From Timaviella obliquedivisa GSE-PSE-MK23-08B (GTDB lineage Bacteria > Cyanobacteriota > Cyanobacteriia > Elainellales > Elainellaceae), in contig JAHHII010000001.1 of assembly GCA_019358855.1 (NCBI GenBank), forward strand, positions 496,001 through 560,000: a stretch of 64,000 nucleotides of DNA, written 5' to 3'. Position numbers and translations under genes: made by a program. Below are positions 3,262 to 15,868 of the stretch, piece by piece. The notes under the pieces are model-generated. The model did no database searches. It saw only the letters and a program-made list of their open reading frames with translations, and was not told the origin of the DNA. How positions within the stretch are numbered: position 1 is the first letter of the stretch; every line of letters begins with the position of its first letter.

Positions 3262-3676
3262 AAAAACGATCTCCGTTATGCTGAGTTTAGGTGCGCCGAG
3301 CACGATTTGAAGAAGCGATGGCGGCAAGTTTGAGGCTGTTTCTGATTGTCTCAGAGATGGAGCGTTTGAAAATAGGGATGTAAAGGGAAAATGGAGAGGG
3401 GGCGATCGCTCTATTCCTTGCTGTGCAAGGCTTAGATGCTTGTTTGTGGTTGGCGATCGTTAAACAATTCTCAATAACTCTTAATGCGGTAAGCCAATCG
3501 AGGTTTGGGAATGCTCAATCAGTTGCTTCAGATTTGTGATTGATGGGGCGATCGTTTTCCATAGGACCAGTTTCATAGCAAACGCTTAAACGGTATATTA
3601 AGATTTTCAGCGATGCTTAAAGTTGCTCGGAGTTTTAGTAGGTTTTGATGATGGGAGAAATAGAGTGAGAGAGCCA
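3262..3676. other. Intergenic region between divergent chlB and the KAP gene
   Basis: About 415 bp without a supported gene. It must hold both divergent promoters, but I cannot place a clear -10/-35 pair. It contains HIP1-like GCGATCG sites and the left copy of the direct repeat at 3452-3479. The frame of the next gene is open from a TTG at 3623, but its ATG at 3677 is the better start. Confidence 0.6.
3452..3479 (+). repeat. Left copy of 28-bp direct repeat bracketing the accessory island
   Basis: Positions 3452-3479 match 6946-6973 at 26 of 28 bases in the same orientation. The two differences are T/C at offset 9 and C/T at offset 14. The shared core ends AATTCTCAATAACT. It lies about 200 bp before the first island gene. 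Confidence 0.75.
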
Positions 3677-5608
3677 ATGACTCAAGGCAATCAAATCAAT
3701 CATCATATAGAAGAATATCTAGACTATTACTGTGGATTATCTCATGCACCTGGTTTTGCCGTTCTACTGAAGGGACAATGGGGATCTGGTAAAACATGGT
3801 TTACCAACAGATATTGTGAAAGATTTCAAGAGAGTGAGCAGGAAGAGAATGAACAGCGATATTTTTATATAAGTCTTTATGGTGTTACTACTCTTTCTGA
3901 AATAGAAGATAAATTCTTTCAGTTACTGCACCCTATACGGTCATCAAAGGGAATGGCAATAACAGGAATAATTCTTAAAGGACTGCTAAAAGGTGCATTA
4001 AAAATCGACTTAACTGGCGACGGCAGAGATGATGGAACATGGAATATTCAAATTCCAGAAATTAATCTTCCGAAGCATTTAGAGAATGTCAATCAGAGTA
4101 TTTTAATTTTTGACGATTTAGAGCGTTGCAAAATAGACCTTGGCAGCCTATTAGGGTATATCAACTATTTTGTCGAGCATCAGGAATTAAAGGTAATTCT
4201 TATTGCTAACGAAGATGAATTATTCAAAAACATCAACTATCAAGTTATCAAAGAGAAGCTAATAGGTAGAACTTTCGGTGTGTCGCTTGACTTTGAAGGA
4301 GCATTGGAGAACTTCATTACTAGAACAAACGATTCAGGTGTCAAAACTTTTTTATCTGACAACACTAAGTTAATAAAAGATTTATATGACAAAGCTGAAT
4401 ATGGGAACCTAAGAACTCTGAGACAAATTATTTTAGAATTTGAGAGGATTTTTAAGACACTTCCAGATAGGGCAAAACGAAAAATAGAGCTTCTGCAAGA
4501 CTTGCTAAAATTACTAATAGTTTTTTCTATTGAGATTAAACAAGGAACAGTATATCCAAAAGACATTAGTAACTTGGACAAAAAATATCAGTCGAGTGAA
4601 GTATCTGACAGATCATCTAGTCTAACGATGAAAGGCAATGCCGAAGATCAAACTTCTCTACAGAGAATGTTGAGCGATAAATACACCATGCTCGACCTGT
4701 ATGAGCCATTCCCAAGTAAAGTTTGGTGGCAAATATTTTTTGATGAAGGCAGCATCAATACAAAGGAATTAGAGCAATCAGTACTAACCAGTAAATACTT
4801 TCAGGATGAAAATACACCTCATTGGGTTAGGTTATGGCATTTCCGAAATCTTGCAGACGAGGAATTTGGTTGTGTACTAAAAGAGGTTGAATCGGAATAT
4901 TCTGATAGAAAGTTTCTTGATCCTCAAGTGATCCAGCATGTTACTGGAATTTTTCTGACTCTGTCTGATATCGGGCTATATTTTAAAGATAAAAGAGACA
5001 TATTGTATGATTCAAAGCTTTATATTAACCAGATGAAAGAAAATGATCAGCTAGAGCCTCTACCTCAATATGTTCCTTTATCTGAAGCAATTGGATATAT
5101 GTCTGGGAGCTATCGTGGACTTGGATTTTATGGTAAGGAGCTTCAAGAGTTCAAAGAATTTAGCTCTTACCTTGATACAACTCGTGAGTCGGTGAGAATT
5201 GAGAGAATGCCAAGTGCTGGTCAAGATCTACTTGCCATCATGCAGAATGATGTCTGGAAGTTTCACAGCATAATTTGTCTCAGTGGCTCTGAAAATCAAG
5301 ATGCAACACAGAAATATTATGAAACGCCTATATTCAAATATATAGAACCAACTGATTTTATGGAAAAAATTTTACTTGCTAAGCATGAAGCCCAACGGCT
5401 TATTTTTTGGTCACTTGCCGAGCGGTACAAATATGATAGTACTAATGAAAAGTTAATTGAAGAATTGGAGTGGCTTAAATCTATTCGGAGCCTTTTGTAT
5501 AAAGAAGTGAGTCTAAAAGGAAATAGAGTCAGCGGATATAATCTAAAGTCACTAATCGGAGAGTACTTGGATAAGATAATTGAGAAGCTTCAGGTAAAAA
5601 GAGTATAA
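3677..5608 (+). CDS. KAP-family P-loop NTPase
   Basis: A 644-residue protein with a Walker A motif (GQWGSGKT, about residue 34) and a Walker B motif (ILIFDDLER, about residue 153), the hallmarks of KAP/STAND-like P-loop NTPases. The rest is a long alpha-helical C-terminal region with no recognised effector domain and no obvious transmembrane segments. KAP NTPases are patchily distributed and several antiphage systems use them, so a defence role is a reasonable inference. The gene is clearly more AT-rich than its neighbours and I see no HIP1 octamer in it, which suggests recent transfer. The start is the ATG at 3677, preceded by GAGAG; an upstream TTG at 3623 is possible. It is first in an island of toxin-like genes. 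Confidence 0.8.
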   Translation: MTQGNQINHHIEEYLDYYCGLSHAPGFAVLLKGQWGSGKTWFTNRYCERFQESEQEENEQRYFYISLYGVTTLSEIEDKFFQLLHPIRSSKGMAITGIILKGLLKGALKIDLTGDGRDDGTWNIQIPEINLPKHLENVNQSILIFDDLERCKIDLGSLLGYINYFVEHQELKVILIANEDELFKNINYQVIKEKLIGRTFGVSLDFEGALENFITRTNDSGVKTFLSDNTKLIKDLYDKAEYGNLRTLRQIILEFERIFKTLPDRAKRKIELLQDLLKLLIVFSIEIKQGTVYPKDISNLDKKYQSSEVSDRSSSLTMKGNAEDQTSLQRMLSDKYTMLDLYEPFPSKVWWQIFFDEGSINTKELEQSVLTSKYFQDENTPHWVRLWHFRNLADEEFGCVLKEVESEYSDRKFLDPQVIQHVTGIFLTLSDIGLYFKDKRDILYDSKLYINQMKENDQLEPLPQYVPLSEAIGYMSGSYRGLGFYGKELQEFKEFSSYLDTTRESVRIERMPSAGQDLLAIMQNDVWKFHSIICLSGSENQDATQKYYETPIFKYIEPTDFMEKILLAKHEAQRLIFWSLAERYKYDSTNEKLIEELEWLKSIRSLLYKEVSLKGNRVSGYNLKSLIGEYLDKIIEKLQVKRV

Positions 5609-5727
5609 ATACAAATCAATAAGTACTGATGTATATTCACGTTGTTCGTTCTAGCACCACAACATAGGTTCTAAGATGGATGACATACAGTGTAGGTTAA
5701 AATGGAGAAACTGGTAACACATTTCAA

Positions 5728-6201
5728 ATGAGTGAAACCGTCTACATAGAAACCAGTATGGTTGGTTACTTGACAGCCAGACCCAGCAATAACTTGATTC
5801 TCATGGCAAACTTGGAGGTTACGCAAGAATGGTGGGATAATCGCCGAGATCAATTTACTCTATATATCTCCCAAGTTGTTTTGGACGAGGTGGCGCGAGG
5901 CAATGCAGAAATAGCAAATAGGCGGCTTGAGATCCTGCGTGATTTTCCATTGCTCAAAGTCAACGAAAGCGTTCAAGGTTTAGCAACCCAGTTCCTCGCA
6001 AAAAGTAATCTTCCTGCTAAAGCTTTTGATGATGCGCTTCATATCGCTGTAGCTACGTTTTATGGACTGGACTATCTTTTAACTTGGAACTGTAAACATA
6101 TTGCCAACGCTCAAATTCAAAAGAAACTCGCACAAATCAGTACTGAAGCAGGATACGAGTTGCCGACGATTTGTACACCCTACGAACTAATGGGAGAGTA
6201 A
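5728..6201 (+). CDS. PIN-domain protein, VapC-like toxin candidate
   Basis: A 157-residue PIN-fold protein. Acidic residues expected at the metal site are visible: the N-terminal VYIETS (Glu in place of the common Asp), DEV near residue 53 and DDALH near residue 101, followed by a strand-plus-WN motif (LTWNCKH) typical of this cyanobacterial PIN subfamily. PIN toxins are Mg-dependent RNases cutting tRNA, rRNA or mRNA. The next gene starts 2 bp after this stop and encodes a small protein, so the pair looks like a toxin-antitoxin module with the toxin first. The exact RNA target cannot be read from the sequence. Confidence 0.78.
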   Translation: MSETVYIETSMVGYLTARPSNNLILMANLEVTQEWWDNRRDQFTLYISQVVLDEVARGNAEIANRRLEILRDFPLLKVNESVQGLATQFLAKSNLPAKAFDDALHIAVATFYGLDYLLTWNCKHIANAQIQKKLAQISTEAGYELPTICTPYELMGE

Positions 6202-6203
6202 CC

Positions 6204-6398
6204 ATGTGGAATGATGAAGTTCTCGAAGAGATTTATAAAATTCGAGAAGAACACGCTAAGTCTTTTAACTATGATTTGCAGGCAATCTGCGATGACCTTC
6301 GGAAAAAGCAAGCTACTAGCGGCAGAAAAATTATTTCCGCTCCGCTCAAGTTTCGCAGTCAGCCGCATAAAAAAAATGCTGGAACTGACCGTGTATGA
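6204..6398 (+). CDS. Small partner of the PIN protein, putative antitoxin
   Basis: A 64-residue protein starting MWNDEV at the ATG 2 bp after the PIN stop codon; the tight spacing suggests translational coupling. The N-terminal half (EEIYKIREEHAKSFNYDL) is helical and charged. The C-terminal part is basic and probably disordered, as in many antitoxins. I recognise it as a short protein that recurs beside PIN genes in cyanobacteria, but no DNA-binding motif is evident. The longer in-frame start at 6171 lies inside the PIN gene and is less likely. Confidence 0.65.
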   Translation: MWNDEVLEEIYKIREEHAKSFNYDLQAICDDLRKKQATSGRKIISAPLKFRSQPHKKNAGTDRV

Positions 6399-6561
6399 GG
6401 TAATCTTTCAGATACTAAGGTTACTAGCCGTAGATCAGTTCAATAGTTAGGACGATGAACTTTCAAGTCAGTCAGAACAGTGCAATGTGTTGGACTTGAA
6501 TTGGCGATCGCCTTACAAAAATGGATAAATCAGAAACTTGAAGCCTTAGGAGCAACATGAG

Positions 6562-6885
6562 ATGACTATTACCATTACCGCAATCAATCTGCCGATGGAA
6601 AAAATTGCTGAGTTTTGCGATCGCTGGCAAGTCATTGAGTTTGCCCTGTTTGGCTCTGTCCTACGCAATGACTTTCGCCCTGAAAGCGACATTGACGTGA
6701 TGGTGCAATTTCACCCAGAAGCCCATCCTACTTTCAAAAGCCTAGATCAGATGGAAGCAGAGTTAAGAAGCATTTTTCATAGAGACATTGACCTAATCAC
6801 CCGACAAGGTATTGAAACCAGTCGTAACTACTTACGTCGCCAAGAAATTCTTTCCTCCGCCCAAGTGATTTATGCAACGGGATAA
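6562..6885 (+). CDS. MNT-type minimal nucleotidyltransferase (MntA-like antitoxin)
   Basis: A 107-residue minimal nucleotidyltransferase with the catalytic GS-x10-DxD signature: GSVLRNDF followed by SDIDVMV, and a further Asp in RDIDLIT. In MntA/HepT systems this protein AMPylates a HEPN RNase toxin encoded directly downstream. Here the downstream partner is missing: an ATG inside this gene's 3' end at 6872 opens a frame that begins like such a partner but stops after 19 codons. The enzyme itself looks intact, so it is an orphan antitoxin or acts on another substrate. Confidence 0.85.
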   Translation: MTITITAINLPMEKIAEFCDRWQVIEFALFGSVLRNDFRPESDIDVMVQFHPEAHPTFKSLDQMEAELRSIFHRDIDLITRQGIETSRNYLRRQEILSSAQVIYATG

Positions 6886-7099: not shown

Positions 7100-8872
7100 A
7101 TGCCTAAGCGTTCCTCCCACAAATCTTCATCGCGCCGCAACTCGAAGCCTAGCCATTCACGGCAAATCAAAGACGAGCGATGGCAACAGCAACAATGGAT
7201 TGAATTGTTTTCAGAAGTCACATTTAAAATTCGGCAATCGCTACAGCTAAAAGAGATTTTGCGGGCAACTGTCACCGAAGTGCAACGGATTTTGCAAGCC
7301 GATCGCGTGCTGATTTACCAGGTTTTTGCTGATGGGACGGGCAAGGCAATTAGTGAAGCAGTTCTGCCAGAATATACTGCAATTCTGGACTTGCAGTTTC
7401 CTGAAGAAGTCTTTCCCCGAGAATATCAAAAGCTATACTCAGAAGGGCGAGTACGGGCGATCGCCAACGTCCATAGTCCGGCTGAGGGGTTAACCGATTG
7501 TTTGATCGAGTTTATCGACCAGTTTGAGATTAAAGCAAAGCTAATTGTTCCAATTCTACAAACCCCCCATACTCCGAGTGAAGTCCATCACCCAAAGCTG
7601 TGGGGCTTATTGATTGCCCACTATTGCGATCGCCCTCGGCGATGGGGCGAATTTGAGTTGCAGCTAATGCAACAACTGGCAAATCAAATTAGTATCGCTC
7701 TGGCTCAGGCACAACTGCTTGAACATTTGGAAGAAATGGTTGAAGTTCGTACCACTGAACTCAAAGACGTTAACCACAACTTGCAACAAGAAATTAATGA
7801 TCGGATGCAAGCAGAAGAAGCTTTGCGCCGTAGCGAGGAGCAGCTACGCCTAGTGACTAATGCCCTGCCCGTGCTGATTGCTTATGTCGATGATCATCAA
7901 CATTATCAGTTCAATAACCAAGCCTACGAAGATTGGCTCGGACAGTCGCCCACAGATATCTATGGCAGTCATCTTCAGGAGGTATGGGGCGCGGAATGCT
8001 ACCAGCGAATGCAAGTCCATGTGGAAGAGGCATTGGCTGGACGAGGGGTAACTTACGAAAATGAAATAGTCCTTAAAGACGATCGCCCTTGCTCAATCAG
8101 CATGACCTATATTCCCCACGTGAACGAGCAGAATACAGTCCAGGGATTTTTTGCGTTAGCAAGTGATATCAGCGATCGCAAAGCTATTGAACGAATGAAG
8201 GATGAATTTATCTCAGTCGTTAGCCACGAACTGCGCACGCCTCTGACCTCTCTTCACAGCGCTCTCAAAATTTTGACTACTGGGCGGCTGGGAACTCTTT
8301 CAACCGCTGGTCAGCAAATGCTAGAGATTGCTGATGATAACACTGAAAGATTAGTTCGTCTTGTTAACAATGTTCTGGACTTGCAGCGAATTGAAGCAGG
8401 CGAAGTTACTATGGAAAAACATGGCTGTAACGCCACCGAATTAATGGTGAAAGCAACTGAAGCAATGCAGCCAATGGCACAACAGCATGAAGTCAAATTT
8501 TCAACGCAACTCGCTAATATTCAACTCTGGGTAGACTCTGATTATATTGTCCAAGCGCTCACTAATTTACTCAGCAATGCCATTAAATTTTCACCTGAAG
8601 GTGGAACAGTTTGGTTAACAGTTGAGAGACACAAGGCTGAAGCACTGTTTCAGGTACGGGATCAAGGACAAGGAATTCCAACAAATAAGCTAGAAAGCAT
8701 CTTTGAGAGATTCCATCAGGTAGATTCTTCCGATTCGCGCAAAAAAGGGGGCACCGGATTAGGGTTGACAATCTGTCGTAAGATTATTGAACAGCATGAT
8801 GGCAAAATTTGGGCAGAAAGTGCGCTGGGACAGGGGAGCGTTTTTTCTTTCACTTTGCCAGTTCAAGGCTGA
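7100..8872 (+). CDS. rcaE: GAF-PAS sensor histidine kinase, RcaE-like
   Basis: A 590-residue soluble kinase. In order: basic N terminus, GAF domain (about 35-205), coiled coil (205-250), PAS (250-365), HisKA with SHELRTP (His376) and HATPase with N box NLLSNAIKFS and GTGLGL. In the GAF, Cys134 sits just before the strand leading into KLIVPIL, where cyanobacteriochromes bind their bilin, although the usual following His is Leu. The same layout (one GAF, one PAS, kinase) is found in RcaE of Fremyella, the green/red sensor of complementary chromatic acclimation. Two matching response regulators follow, then pcyA, which makes phycocyanobilin. I did not confirm the residues that tune RcaE colour. 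The symbol is by architecture and context. Confidence 0.72.
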   Translation: MPKRSSHKSSSRRNSKPSHSRQIKDERWQQQQWIELFSEVTFKIRQSLQLKEILRATVTEVQRILQADRVLIYQVFADGTGKAISEAVLPEYTAILDLQFPEEVFPREYQKLYSEGRVRAIANVHSPAEGLTDCLIEFIDQFEIKAKLIVPILQTPHTPSEVHHPKLWGLLIAHYCDRPRRWGEFELQLMQQLANQISIALAQAQLLEHLEEMVEVRTTELKDVNHNLQQEINDRMQAEEALRRSEEQLRLVTNALPVLIAYVDDHQHYQFNNQAYEDWLGQSPTDIYGSHLQEVWGAECYQRMQVHVEEALAGRGVTYENEIVLKDDRPCSISMTYIPHVNEQNTVQGFFALASDISDRKAIERMKDEFISVVSHELRTPLTSLHSALKILTTGRLGTLSTAGQQMLEIADDNTERLVRLVNNVLDLQRIEAGEVTMEKHGCNATELMVKATEAMQPMAQQHEVKFSTQLANIQLWVDSDYIVQALTNLLSNAIKFSPEGGTVWLTVERHKAEALFQVRDQGQGIPTNKLESIFERFHQVDSSDSRKKGGTGLGLTICRKIIEQHDGKIWAESALGQGSVFSFTLPVQG

Positions 8873-8913
8873 ATCCCAGGACTAATCTTAGATCCGACGA
8901 GAGATACAGCTTT

Positions 8914-9300
8914 ATGGTAACCAAACGAATTTTAATTGTTGATGACGAAGAAACTATTCAAACCGTTGTGCAATTCGGTATTCGGATGCGGGCAGGTTGG
9001 CAGGTTCTCACAGCCAGTTCGGGGCTGCAAGGCATTCAAATCGCCCAAGCTGAACAACCTGATGTGATTTTGTTAGATGTAATGATGCCCGAAATGGACG
9101 GCATTGACACCTTTAAAAGCCTCCAGTCCCATCCTAAAACCGAACGGATTCCGGTGATTTTTCTGACTGCTAAAGCTCAAACTGCAGAGAAACGACAGTT
9201 TAATGAGTTAGGAGTCAACGGAGTGATTACCAAACCCTTTAACTCTCTAGATTTACCGGAGCAAATTGCAAAAATCTTGCGCTGGTCATTGCCGTTATGA
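8914..9300 (+). CDS. rcaF: Single-domain response regulator, RcaF-like
   Basis: A 128-residue receiver domain with no output domain. The acidic pocket is at DDEE (residues 10-13), the phosphoacceptor is Asp55 in ILLDVMMPE, the Thr is in FLTAKA and the Lys in TKPF. A shuttle of this kind (RcaF, about 124 residues) lies between the kinase RcaE and the multi-domain regulator RcaC. The ATG at 8914 is used; the frame is open further upstream but would overlap the kinase. Its stop overlaps the next start by 4 bases (ATGA), so translation is coupled. Confidence 0.78.
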   Translation: MVTKRILIVDDEETIQTVVQFGIRMRAGWQVLTASSGLQGIQIAQAEQPDVILLDVMMPEMDGIDTFKSLQSHPKTERIPVIFLTAKAQTAEKRQFNELGVNGVITKPFNSLDLPEQIAKILRWSLPL

Positions 9301-10889
9301 AAATTTTACTGGTTGATGATGATGACTTTTTAGGCGATCTCCTGACCCGAAGTCTTGCCGCCTACCATTATGTGGTGGATACGGTCAAAGATGGAGAAAT
9401 GGGTTGGACTTACGGTTCTACCTTTGACTATGACCTGATTGTGCTAGATATCATGTTGCCAAAGCTGGATGGCATTAGTCTCTGTCAGCGGTTTCGCGCA
9501 GAGGGATATACGACTCCTATTCTGTTGCTGACGGCACAAGATACCAGCATAGCAAAGGTGAATGGATTGGATGCCGGAGCCGATGATTATGTTGTTAAAC
9601 CCTTTGATGGGGCGGAGTTAAGTGCGCGGATTCGAGCCTTGCTTCGACGCAGCAGTGTTAATCCTTTTCCGTTACTAATTTGGGGTGACTTGCTGCTTAA
9701 TCCTAGCTCATGTGAGGTCACCTATAATGCTCAACCGCTTACCCTGACCACTAAAGAATATGAACTATTAGAGCTTTTTATGCGTGAAAGTCAGCACGTT
9801 TTTAGTACTGATGAAATTTTGGGGCGGCTCTGGTCTTCAGAAGAATTTCCATCGGAGGCAACGGTTCGATCGCACATTCGTCGGCTGCGTCATAAGCTAG
9901 TTGCAGCGGGTGCTCCTCCAGATTTTATTGCCACAGTTCATGGTCGCGGTTATTTCCTCAAGGCAGGCGGCGAGATGCAGTACGGGACACAGAGCATAAC
10001 CCCCGATCCTTTCGAGATACTCGGAAGAAGTCGTTCTGAGCTATCTGTAGGCGATCGTCACACCGTTGCCCAAGCCCAGTACTTAGCATTTCTCGACGAA
10101 ACCTGGCTCGCCCAAAAAGCCAAAATTCTCAACCAACTAACCATTTTCGAGCAAGCGATCGCCACTCTTCCTCAGCGTACAATTCCCCCCTCTTTACAAG
10201 AAAAAGCCTACGCCGCTGCCCATAAACTTGCAGGCACTTTAGGCACCTTTGGGTTGTCTCAAGCCATGGCTTTCGCGCGTCAACTAGAGCAAAGCTTCGC
10301 TCCTGCTAGTCCCCAGCCCAGCATTATCGATCTGGTGACTTTGCTCAACGCCCTTCAACAAGAAATTCAAAATTGGCAAACGCTCGACAACCTCCCGGCG
10401 GGCTCTTCGAGATACCCGCAAGGGGTCGCTTCAAAAGACTCGCAGGGACGCGTTGCACCCTTATCTTTAGAACAAGATATTTTTGAACAAAACGCTTTTG
10501 AACAAAACGCTAAAGTCATGATTGTCGATGATGATCAGCATTGGTTAAAAACTCTACCCAATTTGCTCAAACCGTGGGGCTTCAAAATCACCACCTTGGC
10601 AGAACCCCAGCAATTCTGGACGGTACTACGATCGGTTACCCCAGACCTTTTAGTATTAGATGTCAATATGCCCGACGTGAATGGTTTAGAACTCTGTCAG
10701 GCATTGCGACACGACCCCCGCTGGCAACGGCTGCCTATTGTGGTTTTAAGTGGGCTAACTGATCAAACGACCCAGAATCAAGCTTTTACCCTGGGTGCCG
10801 ATGACTATTTGTGTAAGCCTGTTGTGGGCGTTGATTTAGCAAACCGAATTCTTAATCGTCTCCGTAGAATTAGAGCCTGGGCAACCTAA
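9297..10889 (+). CDS. rcaC: REC-wHTH-Hpt-REC response regulator, RcaC-like
   Basis: A 530-residue regulator. Receiver 1 (about 1-117) has phosphoacceptor Asp51. An OmpR/PhoB winged helix (about 128-224) ends HGRGYFL. An Hpt domain (about 255-365) carries His309 in AAHKLAGTLG. Receiver 2 (about 405-525) carries Asp455. This unusual order is that of RcaC, the DNA-binding regulator of chromatic acclimation, which also has its first receiver Asp at 51; here the protein is shorter than the roughly 650 residues of Fremyella RcaC. RcaC binds the L box, and an exact L box lies upstream of cpcB in this window. The start overlaps the upstream receiver stop. Confidence 0.82.
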   Translation: MKILLVDDDDFLGDLLTRSLAAYHYVVDTVKDGEMGWTYGSTFDYDLIVLDIMLPKLDGISLCQRFRAEGYTTPILLLTAQDTSIAKVNGLDAGADDYVVKPFDGAELSARIRALLRRSSVNPFPLLIWGDLLLNPSSCEVTYNAQPLTLTTKEYELLELFMRESQHVFSTDEILGRLWSSEEFPSEATVRSHIRRLRHKLVAAGAPPDFIATVHGRGYFLKAGGEMQYGTQSITPDPFEILGRSRSELSVGDRHTVAQAQYLAFLDETWLAQKAKILNQLTIFEQAIATLPQRTIPPSLQEKAYAAAHKLAGTLGTFGLSQAMAFARQLEQSFAPASPQPSIIDLVTLLNALQQEIQNWQTLDNLPAGSSRYPQGVASKDSQGRVAPLSLEQDIFEQNAFEQNAKVMIVDDDQHWLKTLPNLLKPWGFKITTLAEPQQFWTVLRSVTPDLLVLDVNMPDVNGLELCQALRHDPRWQRLPIVVLSGLTDQTTQNQAFTLGADDYLCKPVVGVDLANRILNRLRRIRAWAT

Positions 10890-10908
10890 TCGCCTCTAAT
10901 GCCTGTAG

Positions 10909-10926
10909 CTACACACATTTTGCACA
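10909..10926 (+). promoter_or_regulatory. Degenerate L box upstream of pcyA
   Basis: CTACACA-CATT-TTGCACA: the second half matches the L-box heptamer exactly and the first matches 5 of 7, with correct 4-base spacing. It lies 34 bp before the pcyA start and 19 bp after the RcaC-like stop. In Fremyella, RcaC controls pcyA through such an element. One half alone is weak evidence; the spacing and the gene make it credible. Confidence 0.55.
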
Positions 10927-10960
10927 AGCTATCCGGCAATCTAGGGTATAAACATTTCTA

Positions 10961-11743
10961 ATGAAAGAGAAATTTATGAATAAGTCGATGCCCGAATCGA
11001 TGCCAGACTCAGTGAAACCAAAATCGGTTAGAGAACAGCAGCATCCATTGATTCAACGGCTTGCCAATTGCATTGAAGCAACCTGGCAGCAGCATCTTGA
11101 CCTATCACCCTACCCAGTTCCCGCAGATTTAGGCTATGTGGAAGGCAGCTTGGAAGGAGGGCGACTGATCATTGAAAATCACTGCTATCAAACTCCACAG
11201 TTTCGCAAACTTCACCTCGAACTTGCTCGTGTGGGCAACGCTTTAGATATCCTTCACTGTGTCATGTTCCCTAACCCTGAATATGCCCTGCCCATTTTTG
11301 GCGCAGATTTGGTGGGCGGACGGGCTGGGATTAGTGCCGCGATCGCCGATTTATCTCCTGTCAATGGCGATCGTTCTTTGCCGCAAAATTACCAAACTGC
11401 ATTGTCTAAGCTTGATTCCTATCCCTTCACCCAGCGGAGAGAACTGCCACCCTGGGGCAATATTTTCTCAGACTTCTGTCTATTCGTGCGTCCTGCGACT
11501 CCCCAGGAAGAAGATGCTTTTTTGGAGGAGGTTCAAAGCTTTTTGACCTTACACTGTCAGTTTGCTGGTGCCACATCCCCCCTAAACTCGCAAATTGAGG
11601 TCGCTAAAGTCCGGGTAGGGCAGCAATATTATTGTCAACAGCAACAGCAAAATGATAAAACGCGGCGGGTTCTAGAAAAATCTTTTGGTTCAGAATGGGC
11701 TGAGCGCTATATGACAACAATGCTATTTGATTACGTTGCTTAA
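10961..11743 (+). CDS. pcyA: Phycocyanobilin:ferredoxin oxidoreductase (PcyA)
   Basis: PcyA reduces biliverdin IXalpha by four electrons from ferredoxin to phycocyanobilin, the chromophore of phycocyanin and of many cyanobacteriochromes. The 260-residue product has the family-specific stretches DILHCVMFP (conserved catalytic His), FGADLVGG (catalytic Asp), ELPPWG, and a C-terminal [17 protein letters not shown] followed by WAERYM. Length is near the usual 240-250, with about 15 extra N-terminal residues. A second ATG at 10976, preceded by AAAGAGAAA, may be the true start. It lies between the RcaC-like regulator and cpcB, so chromophore and apoprotein genes are neighbours. Confidence 0.96.
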
Positions 11744-11777
11744 TAGCATTGCTGAATCGTGATGTGAAAATCATGTT

Positions 11778-11874
11778 CCCCTGCCCTCGCAGAGAAGGGG
11801 CTAGGGGTTAGGTCAAGTCCTGCAACGCAGCGAGAGAGACCTCTCCCCAAGCCCCTCTCCTGCGAGGGCAGGGG
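11778..11874. repeat. Long imperfect inverted repeat (MITE-like hairpin)
   Basis: Two arms of about 35 bases, starting CCCCTGCCCTCGCAG at 11778 and ending CTGCGAGGGCAGGGG at 11874, pair almost throughout around a central loop near 11815-11838. Such GC-rich 'GAGGGGCTTGGGG' hairpins are common dispersed repeats in cyanobacterial genomes. It sits between pcyA and the cpc promoter and could also end pcyA transcription, though no T run follows. Confidence 0.7.
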
Positions 11875-12135
11875 CTTTGAAAGATTCATACTTTCATTCA
11901 GCAGCGTCGCTTAATAACCCACTAGGAAGCATTCTCATTGTGTTATTGATCTACCCAGGAGCGATTATAGCCATTGGGTGAAATTGACGATCGTCACAAT
12001 GCTTAACAAATATCACCTAACATTAAGATAAATCAACAAATTCTCATCTTTGAAAAAACCTAAAAGACTTGTAGAATAAGGGTTTCAGGTTTTCTTATTA
12101 TTTCTTAACGCGCTTGCTGATCTACAGTCTGAGAA

Positions 12136-12153
12136 TTGCACAATAATTGCACA
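12136..12153 (+). promoter_or_regulatory. L box: predicted RcaC operator of the cpc operon
   Basis: TTGCACA-ATAA-TTGCACA: two perfect heptamers with the 4-base spacer of the Fremyella L box, the RcaC-binding site of the red-light-activated cpc2 and pcyA promoters. It lies 318 bp before the cpcB ATG, leaving room for a promoter just downstream and a long leader, as is usual for cpc operons. I cannot fix the transcription start. Confidence 0.85.
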
Positions 12154-12189
12154 AATGAATTGCTTTAATCAAATTGTTCAAAAGCCATT

Positions 12190-12217
12190 GAACCCTTGAC
12201 TTGCAAGGTCAGGGTTC
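12190..12217 (+). other. Hairpin in the cpc 5' region
   Basis: GAACCCTTGAC pairs with GTCAGGGTTC across a 7-base loop with a single bulged T. It lies in the probable long leader between the L box and cpcB. It is not followed by a T run, so it is more likely an RNA stability or processing element than a terminator. Other parts of the 727-bp pcyA-cpcB gap show no further gene. Confidence 0.45.
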
Positions 12218-12470
12218 AGATTCTTCAGGCTCACGGTAAGGCACTGACTGCCCTGCTCGGCTGGAAGACTAGATTGAAATTTGATTGAATTTGCCCGATA
12301 GGACGTTGCTCTGAGCTAATTGTTAGAGTTTCGCTCTCTTTGCCATGCCCATTCAAGCTGGGTTTGGTTGACTTGTTGCAGTTTGCTTACTCTGCCCATT
12401 TGTGGCTCTGTTCTTTCATTTCAGTCGGGCTTTGAACCCTTACTTCGTGCAAATCTTAGGAGATACTTGA

Positions 12471-12989
12471 ATGCTAGACGCTTTTACTAAAGTAGTTGCC
12501 CAAGCAGATACTCGCGGCGAATTTGTGAGTGATGCTCAAATCGATGCCCTCAAAGCCATGGTATCGGAAGGACCCAAGCGCATGGATGTGGTGAATCGCA
12601 TTACCTCTAACTCATCCACCATTGTGGCAAATGCAGCACGGGCTTTGTTTGCAGATCAACCTCAGTTGATTGCACCCGGTGGCAATGCCTACACCAACCG
12701 CCGCATGGCAGCCTGCTTGCGCGATATGGAAATTATTTTGCGCTATGTTACTTACGCGGCATTTACCGGAGATGCCAGTGTATTAGAAGATCGCTGCCTC
12801 AATGGTCTACGGGAAACCTACTCAGCTTTGGGCGTGCCCGGTGGCTCGGTTGCAACTGGCGTGAACAAGATGAAGGAAGCGGCGATCGCCATTGCCAACG
12901 ATCCTAACGGTGTAACCCGTGGCGACTGTAACTCACTGATGTCTGAGTTGAGCAGCTACTTCGACAAAGCTGCCTCCGCTGTCGGTTAG
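12471..12989 (+). CDS. cpcB: C-phycocyanin beta subunit (CpcB)
   Basis: A 172-residue phycobiliprotein of the phycobilisome rod. Chromophore cysteines are Cys82 (AACLRDME) and Cys153 (GDCNSL), and Asn72 in the GGNAY context is the residue methylated in beta subunits. The sequence follows phycocyanin rather than phycoerythrocyanin. A strong site (AGGAG, 12459-12463) precedes the ATG. It is first in a cpcB-cpcA-linker-linker-cpcD operon, the order of the inducible cpc2 operon of Fremyella (cpcB2A2H2I2D2). The L box upstream supports light-colour control. Confidence 0.97.
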
Positions 12990-13082
12990 TACTTTCTCTT
13001 TCTTAATTCGACTTCAATCTGAAGTCACTTTTCAAGCTCAAAAACAATTCACAACTTTTCACAACCAAAAGGACGACTAAGT

Positions 13083-13571
13083 ATGAAAACGCCTTTAACA
13101 GAAGCGGTCGCAACATCAGATTCTCAAGGACGCTTTTTGAGTTCCACCGAACTCCAAGTTGCATTTGGTCGCTTCCGTCAAGCCGCAGCTAGCCTTGATG
13201 CTGCCAAAGGCTTGAGTTCCAAAGCTTCTAGCTTGGCTGAAGGAGCGGCTAACGCGGTTTACCAAAAGTTCCCATACACCACCCAAATGCAAGGGAACAA
13301 CTATGCTTCCAGCAACACAGGCAAGGCAAAGTGCGCTCGTGACATCGGCTACTACATCCGCATGATCACCTACTGTTTGGTCGCAGGCAGCACGGGCCCC
13401 ATGGATGATTATTTGGTGAGTGGTTTAGCCGAAATCAACCGCACCTTTGAATTGTCTCCTAGCTGGTATGTAGAAGCGCTAAAGCACATCAAATCTAATC
13501 ATGGTTTGAGCGGTGACCCTGCTGTAGAAGCCAACTCCTACATTGACTATGCCATCAATGCCCTAAGCTAA
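13083..13571 (+). CDS. cpcA: C-phycocyanin alpha subunit (CpcA)
   Basis: A 162-residue alpha subunit with the single phycocyanobilin-binding Cys84 ([10 protein letters not shown]) and the family C terminus [15 protein letters not shown]. It pairs with CpcB to form the (alpha-beta) monomer of rod hexamers. It lies 93 bp after cpcB, with AAGGACG as ribosome binding site before the ATG. The alpha lyase genes cpcE and cpcF, which often follow, are not here and must be elsewhere. A large terminator-like hairpin follows. Confidence 0.97.
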
Positions 13572-13582
13572 GGGATTGTTTT

Positions 13583-13687
13583 CGCCCAGAACAACAAAAT
13601 GCTGTGGATGCTTGTTTGCATAGAATGCTTAGTTGCATAAAGTGCTTAATTGTATGAACAGCGATTGTTGTTCTGGGCGCGTTTTTT
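13583..13687 (+). terminator. Attenuator/terminator between cpcBA and the linker genes
   Basis: A perfect 14-bp stem (CGCCCAGAACAACA, 13583-13596, with its complement at 13666-13679) encloses a 69-base loop and is followed by a T-rich tract (13682-13687). It begins 11 bp after the cpcA stop. In cpc operons, partial termination or RNA processing here yields excess cpcBA mRNA over linker mRNA, which fits the stoichiometry of subunits to linkers. Confidence 0.75.
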
Positions 13688-13725
13688 GTCATTAATATTC
13701 CCATTAACATTTAAGGATTTTAGAC

Positions 13726-14544
13726 ATGACAAGTACTATGGCAGCTACCCAGTTAGGCTTCGAGCCATTTGCCGTCACCTCTCCGGTAGAACTACGGGCA
13801 AACTGGTCGGAAGGAGATGTGCAAGCGGTAATTGCAACAGCGTATCGTCAGGTGTTCGGAAATGATCATTTGATGCAATCCGAGCGATTAACTAGCGCTG
13901 AGTCTTTACTGCGTCGAGGCGACATTAATGTGCGTGAATTTATTCGTGCGTTAGCGCAATCAGAGCTATATCGAAAAAAGTTTTTTTACTCCACTCCCCA
14001 AGTGCGTTTTATTGAACTGAACTATAAGCATCTACTGGGTCGGGCACCCTATGATGAGTCTGAAATTACAGAGCACGTAAATCTCTACATTGAACAAGGC
14101 TATGAAGCTGACATCGACTCTTATCTGGATTCTATGGAGTACCAGGAGAGCTTTGGCGACTCGATTGTGCCTTACCACCGGGGCTTTGCGACTCAACGGA
14201 ACCAGAAAACCGTCGGGTTTCCTCGCATGTTTCAGCTTTACCATGGCTATGCCAATAGCGATCGCGCTCAGGGTAGAAACAAATCGGCTTGGCTAACTGA
14301 AGACTTGGCGCACAATACAGCAACCTCCGTGCGAACTCCTAACTTTGGCAAGGGGTTAGCCGGAACGACCACTGGCGATCGGGGTGATCTTTTCCGAGTG
14401 CGAGTGATGCAGGCAAATCGCAGCAACACGCCTCAAGTTCGTCGCAGTGTGAGCGAGTATTTGGTAAGCTACGATCAGCTTTCACCTACCCTTCAGCGCC
14501 TTAACCAGCGCGGCGGTCGAATTGTGAGTATTCTCCCCGCCTAA
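13726..14544 (+). CDS. cpcH: Phycobilisome rod linker, phycocyanin-associated (CpcH/CpcC type)
   Basis: A 272-residue rod linker. The N-terminal Pfam linker domain (about 20-150) carries [11 protein letters not shown] and [11 protein letters not shown]. The C-terminal CpcD-like domain (about 220-272) starts LFRVRVMQ and ends [10 protein letters not shown]. It joins phycocyanin hexamers end to end in rods. The start at 13726 follows an AAGGA site; a second ATG at 13738 is possible. As one of two tandem linkers before cpcD, it matches cpcH2 of the Fremyella cpc2 operon; it could equally be named cpcC. Confidence 0.92.
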
Positions 14545-14590
14545 TTTAAACTCATGCTGAATCTCTTAATCTCCAAAGAAGACTAAACCT

Positions 14591-15460
14591 ATGGCAATTA
14601 CTACTGCGGCTTCCCGCCTCGGCACCAGCGCCTACACCGACCGACCTCCCGTCGAACTTCGTCCTAACTGGACACCCGAAGAGGGCGCTAATGCCATTCA
14701 GGCGATTTACCGCCAAATTTTGGGCAACGATTACCTGATGGCAACCGAACGCCAGGTGGGTCTAGAATCTTTGCTGTGCAATGGACAAATTACAGTGCGT
14801 GAATTTGTCCGAGCTTTGGCTAAAACAGAGCTCTACAAGACCAAATTTCTTTACCCTCATTTTCAAACCAGGGTCATTGAATTGAACCTCAAGCATTTGC
14901 TAGGACGCGCGCCCTACGACGAATCTGAAGTGGTCGAGCACTTGGATCGCTATCAAAATCAAGGTTTTGAAGCAGATATCGATTCCTACATCGATTCTGA
15001 CGAATACGAAGCCAATTTTGGCGATTCTATTGTGCCTTACTATCGAGGGTTTTCTACCCAAACGGGGCAGAAAACGGCTGGTTTTACCCGGATGTTTCAG
15101 CTTTATCGGGGATATGCCACTAGCGATCGCTCTCAAATTGCGGGTTCTTCCTCGCGTTTGGCAGGTGAGCTAGGTAGAAATAGCGTCTCTGCTGTGGTCG
15201 GGCCTTCGGGTGCTAACGAGGGCTGGGCATACCAACCTTCTAAGCAAAACGTGGCACCTGCCCGTGCATTCGGGCGTTCATCGGTCAATTCATCCGATCG
15301 CCTCTATCGCATTGAAGTATCGGGTATCAGCTTGCCCAGATATCCCAAAGTGCGGCGCAGCAGTCAAGAGTTCATCGTGCCCTACGAGCAACTCTCTAGC
15401 ACGCTCCAGCAAATTAACAAGATGGGCGGTAAAGTGGCTAGCGTCTCGATCGCCCAATAA
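14591..15460 (+). CDS. cpcI: Phycobilisome rod linker, phycocyanin-associated (CpcI/CpcC type)
   Basis: A 289-residue paralogue of the preceding linker. It has the same linker domain ([22 protein letters not shown]) and a C-terminal CpcD-like domain beginning LYRIEVSGI, and a longer Ser/Gly-rich joint around 190-235. It starts [13 protein letters not shown], the common N terminus of CpcC proteins, 46 bp after the first linker. Two linkers with different joints probably occupy different positions along the rod. Named by position after the Fremyella cpc2 operon. Confidence 0.92.
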
Positions 15461-15592
15461 CAGCATCAGTAAGAGCAAAGCATTAGATCGAAGATTTTTG
15501 CCAATTTTTGAAGATTCTTGATCCTGTGCTTTGCTCCTCCCATTACCAGATCAAACATCAATAATTAACATCTTTAGGAGATGACCCCAACG

Positions 15593-15868
15593 ATGCTAGG
15601 ACTATCTTCTGCCAACGATCGCGTGTTTGTTTACGAAGTCGAAGGGCTACGGCAAAACGAACAAACTACAAAAAACAGTTATCCAGTACGCAACAGCAGT
15701 AACGTGTTGATTCAGGTTCCTTACAACCGGATGAATGATGAAATGCTTCGCATCAGTCGGATGGGCGGCAGTATTGTCGCAGTTCATCCCCTTGCTGGTT
15801 ATTCGGCAGCTAAGCAAGAGAATTCATGTGAGCATGATGCTCCTGTTGAAAACAATTCTGGCGAATAA
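15593..15868 (+). CDS. cpcD: Phycobilisome small rod-capping linker (CpcD)
   Basis: A 91-residue CpcD: RVFVYEVEGLRQ, then VPYNRMNDEMLRISRMGGSI and VAVHPL. It caps the outer end of phycocyanin rods. An ATG at 15581 touches the AGGAG site with no spacer, so the ATG at 15593 (12-base spacing, and the family start MLG) is preferred. About 25 hydrophilic residues follow the normal C terminus, longer than usual. Last gene of the operon; expected lyases cpcE/F and core linker cpcG do not follow. Confidence 0.92.
   Translation: MLGLSSANDRVFVYEVEGLRQNEQTTKNSYPVRNSSNVLIQVPYNRMNDEMLRISRMGGSIVAVHPLAGYSAAKQENSCEHDAPVENNSGE

Follow-up and report, generated by a model that had tools for sequence, protein, structure and literature searches.

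An RcaE-RcaF-RcaC-Type Cluster with Predicted Phycocyanin Targets in a Timaviella Genome Whose Phycoerythrin Genes Are Broken or Missing

We analyzed a stretch of 64,000 nucleotides from the cyanobacterium Timaviella obliquedivisa GSE-PSE-MK23-08B (assembly GCA_019358855.1, contig JAHHII010000001.1, positions 496,001 to 560,000), hereafter the window, in which rcaE, rcaF, and rcaC are followed by pcyA and a phycocyanin operon of the cpc2 type. We propose, with a probability of roughly two in three (0.68), that this cluster encodes an authentic phosphorelay of RcaE, RcaF, and RcaC together with what it controls in red light, pcyA and cpc2, that all of this came intact through a recent loss of phycoerythrin (PE), and that the switch may set rod length. 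The cluster is best read, from its sequence, as type-3 chromatic acclimation cut down to the red-light arm, which may still be in use. At this level, we could establish the gene identities, the active-site and bilin-site residues, the presence of L boxes at the expected targets, the absence of PE and phycoerythrobilin (PEB) synthesis genes over cut-off, and the existence of remnants at three loci.

Sensor, Relay, and Regulator

The genome is assembled in 29 contigs (4.9 Mb, completeness 100, contamination 1.57). An earlier note, made from the letters of this DNA, had placed nine genes at 7100-15868 on a single strand (+) and had read in the first three the domain orders of RcaE, RcaF, and RcaC; both the places and the domain orders were recovered. 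The first gene, rcaE (7100..8872, +), encodes a kinase of 590 aa composed of GAF (50-201), PAS (254-361), HisKA (366-434), and HATPase (479-589) domains, with a Cys134-Leu135 bilin motif in the GAF and with His376; its N, G1, and G2 boxes can be recognised. When aligned to PDB 7ckv, Glu103, Leu135, and Lys147 fall in the columns of the protochromic triad; the bilin Cys-Leu and the triad are both present. A PDB search returned two top matches, both to the GAF, i.e., 8k9o ("histidine kinase," 273.7 bits, E 3.8e-80) and 7ckv ("RcaE," 235.6 bits, E 1.3e-68), while the next-best match to this region, 6oap, reached 119.9 bits. An N-terminal PAS, present in the RcaE of loci L037 and L059, is absent from the window kinase and from that of Pseudanabaena SR411 (L048).

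The phylogeny of the kinase GAF was one half of the test that the earlier note had set for the identification, and the kinase passes it. In a maximum likelihood tree of 99 rows, which left out the rows of ten duplicate loci, two rows under 30% identity, and the RcaE of a same-genus genome (G051) whose GAF is split, the window GAF groups inside an RcaE clade of 83 rows (support 99/98). This clade joins five other rows at 97/98, from which the window GAF stands apart and which we term CcaS-like by inference, the tree holding no named CcaS. Two rows labelled non-RcaE beforehand (L160 and L161) also fall inside the RcaE clade, on long branches; long-branch warnings were raised for L099_12214, L045_5668, L044_19818, L161, and others.

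The second gene, rcaF (8914..9300, +, ATG at 8914), encodes a single receiver of 128 aa with Asp55, and its stop overlaps the start of rcaC by four bases. The regulator encoded by rcaC (9297..10889, +; 530 aa) has the order receiver-wHTH-Hpt-receiver, with Asp51 in the first receiver, as the earlier note had read it, His309 in the Hpt, and Asp455 in the second receiver. This order is the RcaC layout. The best segments of the regulator are 38-78% identical to RcaC-like proteins encoded downstream of rcaE in named loci.

The same-direction pcyA and cpcB-cpcA-linker-linker-cpcD genes announced by the earlier note are present, and Pfam and NCBIfam models support their identities. The product of pcyA (10961..11743, +; 260 aa), a phycocyanobilin:ferredoxin oxidoreductase, scores 356.6 bits against the NCBIfam PcyA model (cut-off 206). 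Both cpcB (12471..12989, +), a second phycocyanin beta copy whose counterpart lies on contig C28, and cpcA (13083..13571, +; phycocyanin alpha) exceed the phycocyanin equivalog cut-offs. They are followed by two rod linker genes (13726..14544 and 14591..15460, both +), each encoding PBS_linker_poly and CpcD domains, and by cpcD for the rod-capping linker (15581..15868, +; 110.7 bits, cut-off 80).

This cluster belongs to a widespread arrangement. We scanned genome contigs with the kinase and compared, under fixed thresholds, 80 named RcaE loci, the best 80 of 255. The rcaE, rcaF, and rcaC genes are adjacent in 59/80; the synteny comparison showed that the same order, rcaEFC then pcyA and cpcBA, recurs in 14, so the layout is not unique, and the reverse placement, with cpc2 and pcyA upstream of rcaEFC, occurs in seven of the 80. 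These counts are lower bounds, because several loci stop at contig edges and some (e.g., L114) narrowly miss the thresholds. Upstream of the cluster (window 3623-6885), we noticed genes for a KAP-family NTPase, a PIN-domain protein, and a small nucleotidyltransferase.

L Boxes at the Expected Target Genes

The motif TTGCACA-N4-TTGCACA is the RcaC site (L box). Its single exact occurrence in the window, TTGCACAATAATTGCACA, which the earlier note does not mention, lies at 12136-12153 (+), in gene orientation, and precedes the cpcB ATG by 317 bp. Since sites with up to three mismatches are found in the window in near the expected number (10 observed versus 8.64 expected), only this exact L box carries weight. 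The operon presents cpcBA, two rod linkers, and cpcD behind an upstream L box in gene orientation, and the letters of this box are identical on contig C299 of G051, alongside cpcB-like and linker matches. A degenerate L box, CTACACA-N4-TTGCACA (10909..10926, +), stands 34 bp before the pcyA ATG, and its letters recur upstream of pcyA in locus L052.

We surveyed L boxes at places with at least 300 bp upstream (one cpcB and one pcyA place were set aside as shorter; for pcyA, the distance was taken from the match start; a few loci contribute two places each, and one genome supplies both L154 and L076). Upstream of cpcB2-like genes, window included, 16/37 places have an exact L box and 26/37 one with at most one mismatch, versus 0 and 1 of 185 letter shuffles. 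Upstream of pcyA, exact boxes occur at 5/44 places and boxes with at most one mismatch at 15/44 (shuffles 0/220). At the genome scale, TTGYACA-N4-TTGYACA matches exactly in seven of the nine genomes scanned; it matches three times in T. obliquedivisa, two of these forming one overlapping array elsewhere, while the backwards pattern gives 0.

This array, a triple TTGTACA at C2:255209-255237, was considered as a new RcaC target and dropped, the array of G051 (C299:19158-19186) lying in non-matching DNA; both arrays are triple, with an 11-bp period, and their flanking sequences do not match between the two genomes. The 727-bp gap between pcyA and cpcB holds an inverted repeat (11778..11874) with 37-nt arms, 84% complementary; a string resembling it was seen by eye near the C2:255209 array, possibly a dispersed element.

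Loss of the Phycoerythrin Half

No CpeB was found in the T. obliquedivisa genome, where the best of 13 PF00502 matches, a phycocyanin beta, reaches 209 bits versus a cut-off of 275, and no PebA, the best match scoring 83 bits versus 263. Besides the pcyA of the window, PF05996 matches only one further PcyA-like gene, on C12, and a fragment. The fragment (C28:322-540) was rejected as a pcyA piece, its PebB match being far better (6.8e-21 versus 0.11). The second PcyA-like gene (C12:4421-5080, L021) does not adjoin an antenna operon and is perhaps the constitutive copy. Divergent phycobilisome-domain matches (PF00502) at C1:251583-253505 (L009) adjoin an open reading frame (ORF) that looks V4R-like. 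In what follows, the cpe genes are named from gene order, only CpeB, PebA, and PcyA resting on NCBIfam models.

Remnants were found at three loci. On C11 (L035), cpeB is reduced to its first 74 codons, which contain an in-frame TGA and are 74-82% identical to the CpeB of L037 and L048. By comparison with G051, a genome of completeness 95 with CpeB at 323.9 bits, PebA at 371.9 bits, and open cpeBA and cpeYZ, about 950 bp are missing there, i.e., the rest of cpeB and all of cpeA, and about 490 bp of other DNA replace about 180 bp. Next comes cpeY up to codon 126 and then, after a loss of about 1.2 kb, the final part of cpeZ; the join leaves a 239-aa frame open, and this HEAT-repeat ORF (L035:2836-3555) could be expressed. 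On C2 (L030), the order is that of L059: sequence for the last 96 residues of cpeC (78%, with a single stop where it begins), the middle of cpeE (70%), and cpeR (70%, in-frame TAA). The one place matched there by CpeD is that of cpeE, and CpeS and CpeT matched nothing at this locus, to which the search for them was confined. On C28 (L031), a pebB tail of 68 residues (65%, with a stop) precedes cpcB1, and, relative to G051, a stretch of about 2 kb has gone that includes pebA and the larger part of pebB.

The earlier note had spoken of a whole chromatic-acclimation cluster, which overstates what this genome holds. The red-light arm of such a system is present, with RcaE and a phycocyanin operon behind an L box, but the PE half (cpeBA, cpeC to cpeR, pebAB), as far as it was located, has suffered deletion or disruption, and PE genes and PEB synthesis are wanting. 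Therefore, a swap of PE versus phycocyanin is impossible in this genome.

RcaE Without Phycoerythrin in Other Genomes

The sample comprised 77 genomes including T. obliquedivisa (80 loci minus three sharing a genome with another locus and minus L065, plus T. obliquedivisa). CpeB is below cut-off in 15/77 (12/51 plus 3/26) and PebA in 9/51 and 4/26, or in 8 of the 31 genomes of the second batch, which includes the 26. Both fail in 11/77, i.e., in T. obliquedivisa, G002/L039, G005/L045, G020/L076, G023/L081, G032/L094, G041/L105, G043/L108, G047/L114, G116/L054, and G135/L112; they also fail in G073, a genome of the same family as T. obliquedivisa. By identical coordinates, G108 is G002 and G100 is G020. 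Completeness is 99-100 for T. obliquedivisa, G073, G108, and G100, the other PE-less genomes having no figure, and G041 may be merely incomplete because it keeps a PebB piece.

The relatives with rcaE and no CpeB or PebA at cut-off include Scytolyngbya HA4215-MV1, Pseudanabaena ULC068bin1 and lw0831, Stenomitos frigidus ULC18, and Phormidesmis priestleyi Ana, besides G073. In Scytolyngbya HA4215-MV1 and Pseudanabaena ULC068bin1, peb remnants lie beside a cpcB, namely pebA scraps with stops (G100) and a pebB tail with a stop (G047), so the loss of PE is real there too. Pseudanabaena ULC068bin1 and lw0831 share a GAF clade (L039 and L114; support 100/95) with two other Pseudanabaena (L041, L042) and Phormidium tenue (L046), which keep CpeB and PebA. 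Since PE persists within this clade, separate losses of PE among RcaE genomes are likely on sequence grounds. An L box precedes a cpcB in several PE-less genomes, exact in L045 and L154 (G100), with one mismatch in L081, L114, and L152 (G073), and with two in L094.

According to one survey, RcaE occurs in 27/65 genomes, all able to make PEB, and is tied to PE (PMC9415938). In another study, glacier metagenome-assembled genomes (Group 7) have rcaE without PE, for which incompleteness is suggested as a possible cause; the same study gives Phormidesmis priestleyi as PE-less and cites Leptolyngbya BC1307 as lacking PE and chromatic acclimation components (PMC8941735). The rcaEFC-pcyA-cpc2 run of L094 (P. 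priestleyi Ana) is found in a species reported there to be PE-less. In Pseudanabaena SR411, rcaE, rcaF, and rcaC are described near PE genes (PMC11377992). Within a literature in which subscription journals were poorly covered, we noticed no paper on RcaE without PE besides PMC8941735, and none describing an RcaE system that outlasted the loss of PE.

Rod Length as a Possible Output

Besides the two rod linkers of cpc2, PF00427 matches in the T. obliquedivisa genome a protein on C5 that is CpcG-like by eye, ApcE (four repeats), and the scrap of cpeE. If ApcE and the CpcG-like protein are set aside, intact PF00427 linkers were thus found in cpc2 alone. In the second phycocyanin operon, on C28, cpcBA is followed by two ORFs resembling cpcE and cpcF (by eye), with no linker.

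In the known circuit, red light turns on pcyA and cpc2 and represses pebAB, and green light does the reverse (PMC8256508). By analogy with it, RcaE would phosphorylate RcaC via RcaF in red light, and RcaC would bind the L boxes and activate pcyA and cpc2, both being off in green light (PMC8256508). Only the red-light half of this circuit could act in T. obliquedivisa. Because the linkers sit in cpc2 and the C28 operon has none, we predict long phycocyanin rods in red light and short ones in green. The switch would then tune antenna size where the ancestor swapped antenna color. More tentatively, RcaEFC without PE may be a recurrent evolutionary state rather than an artifact: PE would be lost time and again while the red arm is retained, and the sensor would have shifted from swapping color to controlling antenna size, which would amount to an undescribed mode of chromatic acclimation acting through one phycocyanin operon.

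Weighing the Readings

Several observations weigh against an intact, rod-setting phosphorelay. The L box before pcyA departs from the motif at two positions, and two of the nine genomes scanned, the PE-less G073 and G108, contain no exact match to it at all. Five PE-less genomes (G100, G108, G047, G005, and G032) carry 8-12 PF00427 matches, and the listed PE-less relatives except G073 have further PF00427 genes, unlike T. obliquedivisa, so the rod-length proposal is not general. G073 has only the two cpc2 linkers and ApcE; since it gives no CpcG-like match either, some of its sequence may be missing. The end branch of the window GAF is long (0.33 versus a median of 0.11). In relative-rate comparisons with seven outgroups, the RcaE of T. 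obliquedivisa has more unique changes than that of G051 in six and ties in one (chi2 0.00-3.57, none significant). The cpe remnants are little diverged (dN 0.024-0.075). Finally, pebB of G051 is in two frames, and its rcaE and rcaC have two single-base gaps each (four in total).

The last four observations lend weight to the alternative that survives best, which we hold to be unlikely without being negligible, namely that the switch is a relic: irrelevant without PE, it would be intact only because the loss is recent, and it would be bound to decay or already be uncoupled. The ratio of nonsynonymous to synonymous rates (omega), for which a nucleotide alignment served to pair the codons in the T. 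obliquedivisa frame, is low against G051 both for the intact genes (rcaE 0.046, rcaF 0.059, rcaC 0.114, and pcyA 0.079) and for the remnants (cpeB 0.117, cpeY 0.042, and cpeZ 0.099). The loss of PE is recent, because G051 keeps PE and conservation is about equal in the remnants and in living genes. That the rca genes are intact is therefore no evidence of selection since the loss, a further point against us; low omega mostly reflects the time before it, and we do not claim it as proof of such selection. In the relative-rate comparisons for RcaC, chi2 exceeds 3.84 with a single outgroup of the seven, and there G051 is the faster lineage.

On the other hand, the active-site residues that we checked and the cpc2 L box are intact in T. 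obliquedivisa, which speaks against a relic. So does a pair of PE-less sister metagenome-assembled genomes (L081 and L108), which keep RcaE, RcaF, and RcaC at omega 0.14-0.19 (RcaE 0.140, RcaF 0.153, and RcaC 0.194; PcyA 0.169 over 72 codons), but both are possibly incomplete. Moreover, their RcaE omega exceeds that of all four PE-containing pairs (0.054-0.096), which leans towards relaxation, and we regard these values as only suggestive of continued selection without PE. The frame breaks of G051 may be sequencing errors or may mark a dispensable module. On its contig C322 (L137, 13121-16894), rcaE and rcaC are broken while cpeBA, cpeYZ, and pebA are open, which would be either sequencing error or a fate opposite to that in T. 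obliquedivisa; by eye, other overlapping open frames of this 20-kb contig also look broken.

It is very improbable that type-3 chromatic acclimation is complete in T. obliquedivisa, its PE being encoded elsewhere and missed by the assembly. The 29 contigs leave room for gaps, and CpeB is above cut-off in 39/51 RcaE genomes. However, completeness is 100, and PE sequence survives at three loci in broken form, with deletions that show against the same-genus genome or a PE-bearing relative; an assembly gap was rejected as the cause, in view of these deletions and of the stops in the remnants.

Least credible of all is a CcaS or other green/red cyanobacteriochrome lying beside cpc genes by chance, for although the Cys-Leu motif is common to CcaS and RcaE (PMC9415938) and the GAF tree has no named CcaS among its rows, the tree position, the PDB ranking, the RcaF- and RcaC-like neighbors, and the L box contradict it.

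Known Systems and Significance

The RcaE-RcaF-RcaC reading places the cluster next to the type-3 systems of Fremyella/Tolypothrix PCC 7601 and Synechococcus PCC 7335. The domain orders of sensor, relay, and regulator, the bilin-site residues, the L box before cpc2 and pcyA, and the gene content of cpc2 are the same; the differences lie in the lack, over cut-off, of any gene for PE or PEB synthesis in T. obliquedivisa and in a kinase without the N-terminal PAS of the L037 and L059 RcaE. The CcaS-CcaR systems (types 1, 2, and 7) also use a green/red cyanobacteriochrome kinase to control phycobilisome genes, but they differ in the GAF tree position, in the regulator, which is RcaC-like in the window, and in the linkers, both linkers of the cluster carrying a CpcD domain that CpcL is not known to have. 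The far-red system RfpA-RfpB-RfpC likewise combines a photoreceptor kinase with two receiver proteins, one of them DNA-binding. Our kinase has no PHY among its Pfam matches, and genes for far-red antenna or photosystem components are absent from the nine of the cluster, to which the comparison with far-red light photoacclimation was confined. In addition, RfpA has His beside the bilin Cys (PMC9415938), whereas the window kinase has Leu.

Since an intact switch and broken PE genes stand in one genome, an RcaE switch and PE can come apart, and the type of chromatic acclimation should not be called from the sensor alone. T. obliquedivisa offers a natural system for studying the phycocyanin half of the response alone, and two genomes of the same genus, one with and one without PE, are available for comparison.

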